The notes below the pieces were generated by a model. It saw nothing but the letters and a program-made list of their open reading frames with translations, did no database searches and had not been told where the DNA came from. Position numbers and translations under genes: made by a program. Below are positions 28,702-31,229 of a DNA stretch of 64,000 bases, in pieces. Numbering within the stretch: position 1 is the stretch's first letter; every line of letters begins with the position of its first letter. The DNA is from Zoogloea sp. 1C4 (GTDB lineage Bacteria; Pseudomonadota; Gammaproteobacteria; Burkholderiales; Rhodocyclaceae), in contig NZ_SSXU01000010.1 in assembly GCF_009469605.1 (NCBI RefSeq), positions 62,001-126,000 of the forward strand, read 5' to 3'.

Positions 28702-29961
28702 ATGTTCCACCCCTTCCGCTCCGTCTCTGCTTCTCCTGCCCTGTCCCGTCTTTCCGTCACCTGCGCCGCGCTGCTGCTGGCGGCCTGCGCCGGCGCGCCG
28801 CGCCCGGTGAGCGGCCCGTCCGCGCCGGTCGTCCAGCCGGCGCACCCGACCCCGGCACCCGCGGTCACGCCGCCGGCCGCTACCGGCGGTGCACCGGCGC
28901 CCCAGCCCCTGGCGCGTCCGCTGCAGCCGGCGGCGTGGGCCGATCTGCCGGGCTGGAGCGGTGACGCCATCGACGAGGCCTGGCCGGCCTTCCTGGCGTC
29001 GTGCCGGGCCATCGGCCGGCAGGCGGTGTGGGCCGCCAGTTGCGAGGCGGCCCGCGGGCTGGGCGAGCGCCCGGGCGCGTCGGCGGTGCGCAATTTCTTC
29101 GAGTCGCGCTTCACCCCGTGGCGGGTGAGCAACCCGGACGGCACCAAGGAAGGCCTCATCACCGGCTATTACGAGCCCCTCATCAACGGCAGCCGCCACA
29201 AGGGCGGGGCCTACAATTGGCCGGTGCTGGGTGTGCCGGACGATCTGCTGTCCATCGACCTGAGCGAGGTGCTGCCGGATCTCAAGGGGCAGCGCCTGCG
29301 CGGCCGGCTGGTGGGCAAGAAGGTGGTGCCGTATTACTCCCGCGCCGAGGTGGCGCGGATGGCCGACAAGTTCGCGGCCAAGGCCATTCTCTACGCGGAC
29401 GACGCGGTGGATCTGTTCTTCCTGCAGGTGCAGGGCTCCGGCCGGGTGAAGCTGCCCGACGGCAGCATCGTGCGCATCGCCTACGCCGACACCAACGGCC
29501 ATCCCTACCAGTCCATCGGCCGCTGGCTGGCCGACAAGGGCGAACTGCGCATCGATCAAGCCTCGATGGACGGCATCAAGAACTGGGCGCGAGCCAACCC
29601 CGGCCGCCTGCAGGAGATGCTCAACGCCAACCCGAGCTATGTGTTCTTCCGGGAAGTGCCGAACACCAATGGCGGCCCGGTGGGCGCCCTGGGCCAGCCC
29701 CTCACCGACGGGCGCAGCCTGGCGGTGGACCCGCGCAGCATTCCGCTGGGGGCGCCGGTGTTCCTCTCCACCACCCAGCCCAATAGCAGCCAGCCCCTGC
29801 GCCGCCTGATGCTGGCCCAGGACACCGGCAGCGCCATCAAGGGCGGCGTGCGCGGCGACTTCTACTGGGGCTTCGGCGCCGAAGCCGGCGCCCAGGCCGG
29901 GCGGATGCGTCAGAAGGGCGAGATGTGGGTGCTCTATCCGCGCGATCAGGTGCCGCGCTGA
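28702..29961 (+). CDS. mltA: Membrane-bound lytic murein transglycosylase A
   Basis: This 419-residue outer-membrane lipoprotein cleaves peptidoglycan glycan strands with formation of 1,6-anhydromuramic acid. A lipobox signal (TCAALLLAAC) puts the lipidated cysteine near residue 28, followed by a long Pro/Ala-rich linker. The MltA domain begins around residue 130 (FTPWRV, GLITGYYEP) and includes FFLQVQGSGRV and YADTNGHPYQSIG. The C-terminal 3D domain ends in MLAQDTGSAIKGGVRGDFYW with the catalytic aspartates. The ATG at 28702 gives the best signal peptide; an in-frame ATG lies ten codons upstream. Confidence 0.94.
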   Translation: MFHPFRSVSASPALSRLSVTCAALLLAACAGAPRPVSGPSAPVVQPAHPTPAPAVTPPAATGGAPAPQPLARPLQPAAWADLPGWSGDAIDEAWPAFLASCRAIGRQAVWAASCEAARGLGERPGASAVRNFFESRFTPWRVSNPDGTKEGLITGYYEPLINGSRHKGGAYNWPVLGVPDDLLSIDLSEVLPDLKGQRLRGRLVGKKVVPYYSRAEVARMADKFAAKAILYADDAVDLFFLQVQGSGRVKLPDGSIVRIAYADTNGHPYQSIGRWLADKGELRIDQASMDGIKNWARANPGRLQEMLNANPSYVFFREVPNTNGGPVGALGQPLTDGRSLAVDPRSIPLGAPVFLSTTQPNSSQPLRRLMLAQDTGSAIKGGVRGDFYWGFGAEAGAQAGRMRQKGEMWVLYPRDQVPR

Positions 29962-29993
29962 GGTCGAAGCCCAGGGTCGGCGCGTCAGGCGCC

Positions 29994-30190
29994 GACTTGA
30001 AATCGCTTGGCAAACACTTGAACGGTTCCAAATCGGACTTGGGGCTTTGCAAGTTTTACCTGGGCGCGTGTAAGTCAGACTTGGGCCATCCGAAGTCTGA
30101 CTTTGAAAAACTGCAAGTCCGACTTGGGAGGCCGCAAGCTTTTCTTTGAAGATCGCAAGCGAGACTTGCGCGATTTGATCTCTGGCTTGC
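29994..30190. repeat. Degenerate tandem array with a 21-bp period and palindromic cores
   Basis: Ten copies of an ACTTG-like core start at 29995, 30016, 30037, 30058, 30079, 30100, 30122, 30143, 30164 and 30185, so every step is 21 bp except one of 22. The best units read AAGTCAGACTTGGG, AAGTCTGACTTTG and AAGTCCGACTTGGG, that is, the palindrome AAGTC-N-GACTT plus about eight variable bases. The array begins 33 bp after the mltA stop and fills half of the gap to the EAL gene. A GC hairpin (29976-29996) at its left edge may terminate mltA. From 30191 to 30389 I see nothing else. Confidence 0.85.
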
Positions 30191-30389
30191 GCGCGCAGCA
30201 CCCAGGCTTTGGTCGGCGGGCGCCAGCGAGCCCACGGCGGGCGTTTCTTTTGCGCGGGGCTGAGCGTAGATCGTAGATTTGTAATAAGTTTTTCGTAAAT
30301 TCATGGTTTGCCCGCACGGAGCCCCGCGCTACCGTGCGAAGCTGGCGCCTTACCCCAGTCGCCATCCAATCTGCATCCTGGAGACCATC

Positions 30390-31229
30390 GTGCCCCTTAC
30401 CGAACTCGTCCATTACTTCAACAAGCGCAACCGGCTCGTCCGCGGTGGCGAGGACGAGGGCTTCCGGTTCGTCGACGGGCAGGTGCGCATGCACTTTGGC
30501 GGGCGGGTCTTCGGGACGCGCTTCCAGCCCATCGTCGAGCGTGCTGGCAGCCAGCCGGCCGGGCACGAGGCGCATCTGCACGTGCTGGGCGCTTCTGCCA
30601 CGCCGGCCCAGACGGTGTTCCTGGAAGCCCGGGACGATGCCGAGCTGGTGCACCTGGATCGCATGGCGCGCACCCTGCATGCCCTCAACTTTTTGCTGGA
30701 GCGGGAGCAGCACGGGGGCTTCCTGGCCCTCAATGTGCATCCGCAGCTGATCCGCGCGGTGCGCGACCACCACGGTCATGTTTTCGAGACGGTGCTGGCC
30801 CGCTGCGGGCTGACCTCCGACCGGGTGATGCTGGAGCTCTCCGACGACGGCTTCGAGCCCGTCGCGCCGCTGGCCACGGCGATCGCCGAATACCGGGAGC
30901 GGGGCTATCGGGTGGCCATCGACAACTTCGGTCGGCATACGTCCGATCTGGAAAGGCTGGAGCAACTGGCCCCCGACGTGGTGAAGCTCGACCGCAGCCT
31001 GATCGGCCACGCCGGCCACCTGAGCCTCGCCAAGCGGGTGATGACCGAGCTCTCCGCCGAGGTCCGGCGCCTCGGCATGAGCGTGGTGTGCCAGTGCATC
31101 GAGAACCCGCTGCAGCTCGACGTGGCGCGGGAGGCTGGTGTGGATTGGCTGCAGGGCCATCTGCTGGGCCGGCCGGCGGCCCATTGCCTGCCGGTGCCGA
31201 GGCCCCGCCGGCCCCGGGCGGCGGCCTGA
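30390..31229 (+). CDS. Degenerate EAL domain protein, probably catalytically inactive
   Basis: This 279-residue protein has the fold of a cyclic-di-GMP phosphodiesterase: FQPIVE near residue 52, FLALNVHP, VAIDNFGRHTSDLERL, VVKLDRSLIG and WLQGHLLGRP. Key residues deviate: the EAL motif reads EAH, and the second aspartate of the DDFG metal motif is replaced (IDNFG). It therefore probably binds cyclic-di-GMP or a partner protein rather than hydrolysing the nucleotide. There is no GGDEF, PAS or membrane segment. The start is GTG at 30390 after CTGGAGA. It is a single gene ending in a bidirectional terminator. Confidence 0.85.
   Translation: MPLTELVHYFNKRNRLVRGGEDEGFRFVDGQVRMHFGGRVFGTRFQPIVERAGSQPAGHEAHLHVLGASATPAQTVFLEARDDAELVHLDRMARTLHALNFLLEREQHGGFLALNVHPQLIRAVRDHHGHVFETVLARCGLTSDRVMLELSDDGFEPVAPLATAIAEYRERGYRVAIDNFGRHTSDLERLEQLAPDVVKLDRSLIGHAGHLSLAKRVMTELSAEVRRLGMSVVCQCIENPLQLDVAREAGVDWLQGHLLGRPAAHCLPVPRPRRPRAAA

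Follow-up and report, generated by a model that had tools for sequence, protein, structure and literature searches.

The ParR-parC centromeres of plasmids and replication iterons consist of short sites, repeated in tandem and in helical register, to which proteins bind cooperatively; the repeats of pSK41 are reportedly 20 bp long. Minisatellites (VNTRs) also consist of tandem units, and they change by the gain and loss of whole units. The REP, BIME and REPIN sequences, which are associated with RAYT transposases, are dispersed, extragenic elements whose short palindromic units form clusters of alternating orientation and sometimes lie at gene ends. REPs usually occur in more than 100 copies per genome, according to PMC2817692. 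The betaproteobacterial repeat element (BRE), as characterized in PMC3110155, has a unit of ~90 bp and a GC content above the genome average, and is dispersed, mostly intergenic, partly tandem and variable in copy number.

The DNA analyzed here (the “window”) is a 64-kb stretch of a Zoogloea genome, referred to as G000, in which a first-pass annotation had pointed out a ten-unit array with a 21-bp period and palindromic cores after mltA. The array is real: a phase model derived from the consensus of the family assigns it 218 bp and 10.4 units, its neighbours are confirmed by Pfam (Table 1), and when 190-bp self-identities at lags of 10-119 are compared over the whole 64 kb, the highest value in the window, 0.526, is that of lag 21 at 30016. 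Cores matching AAGTC-N-GACTT with at most one mismatch occur five times in the window, four of them inside the array, while 100 dinucleotide shuffles yielded a mean of 0.77 such cores and never as many as five; the three exact cores follow one another at steps of 21 and 22 bp. The annotation's description of the units as degenerate, with a period of two helical turns, is also supported, and it is probably because of this degeneracy that the array is absent from the output of Tandem Repeats Finder at a minimum score of 30. The stem-loop listed in Table 1, a candidate terminator that is not among the hits of a terminator scan, has by eye an identical stem and a different loop in the sister genome. 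Part of the leader of the EAL gene (30269-30389) is recognizable in array-less relatives.

Table 1. Coordinates of the window array, its cores and its surroundings.
Feature	Position	Strand	Basis
mltA, PF03562 and 3D domain	28702..29961	+	Pfam
~300-bp stretch replacing ~15 bp of the nearest array-less relatives	29962..30268		20 mltA-EAL loci; limits by eye
GC-rich stem-loop between mltA stop and array, overlapping the first array bases	29976..29996	+	by eye
21-bp-period array, ~10.4 units; consensus of the window array.tcgcAAGTC.GACTTGgGcG	29992..30209		phase model, lag identity
Near-perfect core AAATCGGACTT, one mismatch	30030..30040		core search
Perfect core AAGTCAGACTT	30072..30082		core search
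Perfect core AAGTCTGACTT	30093..30103		core search
Perfect core AAGTCCGACTT, preceded by the 22-bp step	30115..30125		core search
EAL-domain gene, PF00563, downstream of the array	30390..31229	+	Pfam

The window array is one copy of a dispersed, mostly intergenic DNA family that is specific to Zoogloea. The range of the family was determined with two models, R1, which has paired columns, and R2, a sequence-only model made from more arrays. R1 matches 13 of 23 congeneric genomes (E <= 0.001) and R2 matches 14, counts which by construction include the genomes that supplied training arrays; four of the nine R2-negative genomes are less than 90% complete. Outside the genus, under a stricter filter, no match was obtained with R1 in 299 other genomes of the order (E <= 0.0001), nor with R2 in 39 other genomes of the taxonomic family. 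G000 carries six arrays (C9 at 49 kb, C9 at 92 kb, which is the window array, C58, C96, C118 and C129) and G008 likewise has six array loci, which corresponds to roughly 70 units per genome in each. Among the 46 arrays delimited with the phase model, some of which end at contig ends, the median length is 254.5 bp (range 95-478), 33 have 10-13.5 units, and sizes peak at 11-12 units. Their mean GC content is 0.518, compared to 0.61-0.74 in the flanks of 21 loci, and in 32 of 32 arrays lag 21 has the best identity among the listed lags below 42. Array positions are intergenic, the sole exception being L028, which is entered by the last codons of tilS. The motif TTCAAGTCNGACTTGAA, with at most one mismatch, has eight matches in G000, and all eight lie within arrays, the window's own array being too diverged to match. 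With one array as the query, 72,556 plasmid records and 50,697 phage records gave no match; a viral origin was considered and rejected, since an exact two-core match was not found. No description of these arrays was found in searches of an open-access library.

The Zoogloea arrays share with the REP, BIME and REPIN elements their dispersal, their extragenic position, the short palindromic units in clusters of alternating orientation and, in some cases, a place at gene ends, and are set apart by their strict 21-bp register. A GTAG or CGTC tag at one end of the palindrome, as in the REPs, does not emerge here: the 11871 bp of the 46 arrays (~565 units) contain only 4 GTAG, 4 CTAC, 19 CGTC and 20 GACG. 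The Y1 transposase family PF01797 is present in 8 of the 23 genomes, comprising 7 of the 14 array-bearing genomes (by R2) and 1 of the 9 array-less ones, and was not found in the array-rich G008, G019 and G020; half of the array-bearing genomes thus have no Y1 transposase match, and a weak link is possible in the other seven. The six loci and roughly 70 units of G000 and of G008 are also fewer than the copies usual for REPs, so that the tag, the transposase and the abundance together rule out an identity with the REP/RAYT system. The arrays resemble the BRE in all of the distributional traits listed for it and in occurring in betaproteobacteria, and differ from that description in their 21-bp period and in being richer in AT than their flanks. 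Tandem sites in helical register, as in the ParR-parC centromeres and iterons, are present, both in the dominance of lag 21 and in gaps that are often multiples of 21; however, the Zoogloea arrays are chromosomal and lie at several loci, and no par or rep gene that might encode a cognate DNA-binding protein is found among 30 flanking proteins examined. If they are bound by a protein, the arrays would by analogy work like a ParR-parC centromere. The gain and loss of whole tandem units is shared with the VNTRs, but the Zoogloea units are strongly diverged and yet in register, their arrays are narrow in size, related arrays occur at many loci, and the units show inverted similarity.

Array loci are clade-specific. 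The orthologous mltA-EAL spacers hold an array in 2 of 20 genomes, G000 and its sister genome G014, and none in the other 18, where 17 of the spacers measure 134-142 bp. The recurrence that the first-pass annotation had proposed as a check on its reading is thus found: one sister genome has an array at its orthologous mltA locus, and the family recurs at several further loci. Of the 14 rows compared for the NUDIX-phosphomannomutase locus, 5 have an array that begins at the NUDIX stop codon, 8 are orthologues without an array, and 1 is a distant paralogue. On a tree of MltA+EAL from 20 genomes, array presence as labelled by R1 requires at least four changes. TolC lies upstream of the ferric-reductase gene in 10 of the best 12 of 22 matches, and in G014 an array is situated between the two; in G000 the array separates the ferric reductase from a gene that by eye resembles moaA (left flank, L117 against L119). 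The presence of the moaA-like gene on the far side of the array implies that the gene order broke at the array, and arrays may act as recombination points. Several further pairs of arrays have only one flank in common.

Flanks that match one and the same gene of 158 residues adjoin an array in G008, G006, G018 and G020, representing three clades, and the opposite flank varies; the protein of this gene (L040:2559-3035, minus strand) has no Pfam match at E 1e-5. Of the 30 flanking proteins examined, from part of the loci, 25 have a Pfam match and 5 have none, and the families are diverse (EamA, VTT, TilS, TRAP transporter, methionine synthase, histidine kinases, MOFRL and others), with no recurrent DNA-binding regulator and one transposase. 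The latter, of the Mutator family (PF00872, L027:2801-3256), is encoded next to the C58 array, where the contig ends. Since the flanking proteins are diverse and sites outside the arrays of G000 are near chance (three at two mismatches, compared to two for a reversed-pattern control), a regulon of isolated sites is unlikely and was rejected. Two arrays lie between gene neighbours whose Pfam families, DctP with DctQM and FtsX with CrtC-lipocalin, suggest operons.

The evolution of the arrays was followed in 14 ortholog pairs, comprising 3130 sites and 579 substitutions. Of the 14 gap events, eight have lengths exactly divisible by 21, and the off-register gaps measure 1, 2, 4, 11, 17 and 41, the 17 and the 4 occurring in one pair and adding up to 21. 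There are ~96 substitutions per off-register gap in the arrays, compared to 31.6 per gap in the array-less mltA-EAL spacers (1232 sites, 158 substitutions, 5 gaps). The annotation's statement that the array is not a recent slippage product therefore stands for the array as a whole, but blocks of 21 and 42 bp have been gained or lost. Substitutions fall on the half-sites (positions 5-9 and 13-17) at 235/1488 = 0.158 and on the centre and linker (positions 1, 2, 10-12, 20 and 21, with 3, 4, 18 and 19 in neither class) at 260/1050 = 0.248, a difference equalled by none of 10000 rotations, and the rates at mirror positions correlate at 0.63 (349/10000). An earlier set of eight pairs gave 0.137 and 0.265 (4/5000), with a mirror correlation of 0.81 (30/5000). 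In 11 of the 14 pairs the flanks, which are mostly coding, have changed more slowly than the arrays.

When each array is compared with column-shuffled versions of itself, units are more alike than expected whether they are aligned directly (mean z 3.35) or as inverses (2.85, 26 arrays), while the self-palindromy of the units equals the column expectation (z -0.02). The simplest reading suggested by this result is that units have been copied into one another in both orientations, and such copying can by itself maintain a palindrome and also inflate the differences at variable positions; the palindromic consensus and the mirror symmetry could also have arisen by inverted unit copying, while the annotation had seen in the palindromic array a possible cooperative site for a dimeric protein, or a chromosome-organizing or decoy site. 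A conversion-aware count, which leaves out any state that also occurs in another unit or its mirror and has few counts and low power, gives 28/354 = 0.079 for half-sites and 5/116 = 0.043 for centre and linker (ratio 0.54, bootstrap 0.17-1.29). Since the half-sites are not slower in this count, clear support for purifying selection has to be withdrawn; purifying selection on the half-sites is suggestive, being significant in the rates and unconfirmed by the conversion-aware count. What is left in favour of constraint, subject to the bias of a motif search toward near-consensus arrays and hence toward uniform half-sites, is the small number of off-register indels, the uniform phases of five array groups, whose within-array diversity profiles agree at r of 0.19-0.63 and have a mean with a mirror correlation of 0.95, and covariation of mirror positions across the 46 arrays, non-independent orthologues included (8/14 r=0.45 and 4/18 r=0.71; controls -0.33 and -0.25). 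Copying of whole arrays was also considered for L043 and L131, which lie in one genome, are 75% identical over 267 bp without gaps, and have in common with L033 a GC-rich end unit, but it was rejected because unrelated arrays also reach 70-73%.

The best mechanism, which is put forward tentatively and at somewhat less than an even chance, is a cooperative platform on one face of the DNA for a putative dimeric protein. The element consists of about twelve 21-bp dyad-symmetric units with half-sites near GTTCAAGTC and GACTTGAAC, and copying from unit to unit would take place in either orientation. The protein would occupy one dyad per unit, so that neighbouring dimers, two helical turns apart on one helix face, would touch each other and bind cooperatively, and the resulting platform of ~250 bp may organize the chromosome, act in a partition-like way or titrate the protein, and would not serve as an operator for the gene next to it. 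Pressure from the protein would preserve the half-sites and the register, and unit exchange would hold the two half-sites alike. The spread of the family, the register, the half-site rates, the agreeing diversity profiles, the mirror covariation, the size of 10-13.5 units, the confinement of the TTCAAGTCNGACTTGAA matches of G000 to arrays and the array beside the same gene are consistent with this mechanism; against it stand the conversion-aware count, the lack of a recurrent DNA-binding regulator among the flanking proteins examined, the prediction of mirror symmetry by inverted copying, the faster change of arrays than of flanks, the nine genomes without an R2 match and the bias of the motif search, and the arrays within operon-like gene pairs make a poor fit with a strong roadblock. 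The main rival, which has a substantial though less than even probability, is a functionless satellite-like repeat, in which a tandem array now and then seeds new loci and is homogenized by bidirectional unit copying, whether through template switching or because self-complementary units recombine, with the dyad symmetry, the 21-bp indels and the common consensus as by-products. The direct and inverted similarity without excess self-palindromy, the at least four changes of presence, and the conversion-aware count, in which constraint does not appear and novel states fall below the random-mutation expectation calculated from the opportunities (28 compared to ~56 in half-sites, 5 compared to ~29 in centre and linker), all argue for such a repeat. 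The uniformity of similar phases in all five array groups and the scarcity of off-register indels argue against it, and the 11-12-unit size peak and the retention of an array next to one gene across three clades would need either constraint or a special copying route.

Three further explanations invoke RNA, bending or translation. An RNA or single-strand element, co-transcribed with the upstream gene and folding into long rods that would serve termination or the stability of the mRNA 3' end, is in keeping with the start of some arrays directly after stop codons and with the folding of the window array, which exceeds that of dinucleotide shuffles (z -4.29; 0.27 to -7.39 over ten array segments), and all 26 arrays also fold better than column-shuffled versions (mean z -3.14, 26/26 negative). 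When only the order of units is shuffled, however, the excess disappears on average (mean z -0.34, 12/26 negative), so that the extra stability looks mostly like a footprint of unit copying, with L043, L131, L120, L225, L035 and L037 as exceptions at z of about -1.9 to -3.2. Compensated hairpins within units were rejected, since pairing within units amounts to 64.6% compared to 65.3% in shuffles and pairing is kept in only 6 of 32 double changes (a second pairing register, at slide -2, has 51.5% paired), and 16 Rfam matches at E <= 1 from five loci include none above the curated gathering score; an RNA element is accordingly judged unlikely. Intrinsically bent or flexible DNA with phased AA/TT, acting as a bend or boundary, is less probable still: the half-site AA and TT recur at ~9 and 12 bp, the arrays are AT-rich relative to their flanks, and curvature predicted from wedge values reaches z of 2.2 to 2.8 in 4 of 20 arrays, but the mean of 0.72 is near chance and the window array has -0.03. 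A coding heptad repeat, decayed or live, would account for a 21-bp period as seven codons, and 14 of 21 arrays do have at least one stop-free frame, often F-K-S-D-L-N, which is open in the consensus. In the other 7 each of the six frames is interrupted by stops, the arrays at mltA and on the NUDIX side start at or after stop codons, and in the F-K-S-D-L-N frame third positions (0.176, 14 pairs) change no faster than the other two classes (0.201 and 0.178), so that a codon signature is absent; a coding repeat was rejected on the substitution rates and is left with a very small probability, and these rates give no sign of the decayed coding repeat that the annotation had named as a refutation.

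A fuller version of the platform mechanism, in which ~250-bp arrays of two-turn dyad units between genes form a dispersed chromosomal platform, homogenized in both directions and co-evolving with a putative dimer that coats one DNA face for chromosome organization or segregation, is rather improbable. If the arrays are read by a protein, a floc-forming genus of wastewater would have a new chromosome-organizing or partition-like system, with a site readable from sequence; if there is no such protein, the arrays would be a good bacterial case of satellite-like DNA, in which short dispersed arrays keep register and symmetry through direct and inverted copying of units. In either case the arrays mark changes of gene order, as at the ferric-reductase locus.

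Two observations concern larger and more distant repeats. L036:755-1232 is an array of 22.8 units with a higher-order repeat of 105 bp (5 x 21). An exact pair of AAGTCNGACTT spaced by 21 bp is found in 43 stretches, 41 of which lie outside Zoogloea (L060, L086, L047, L055, L067, L057, L079); among the matches listed, these are mostly two-copy hairpins, but some, which may reflect convergence or an effect of the scan, form tandem arrays with a 21-bp period in Bacteroidales, Lachnospiraceae and Spirochaetaceae.
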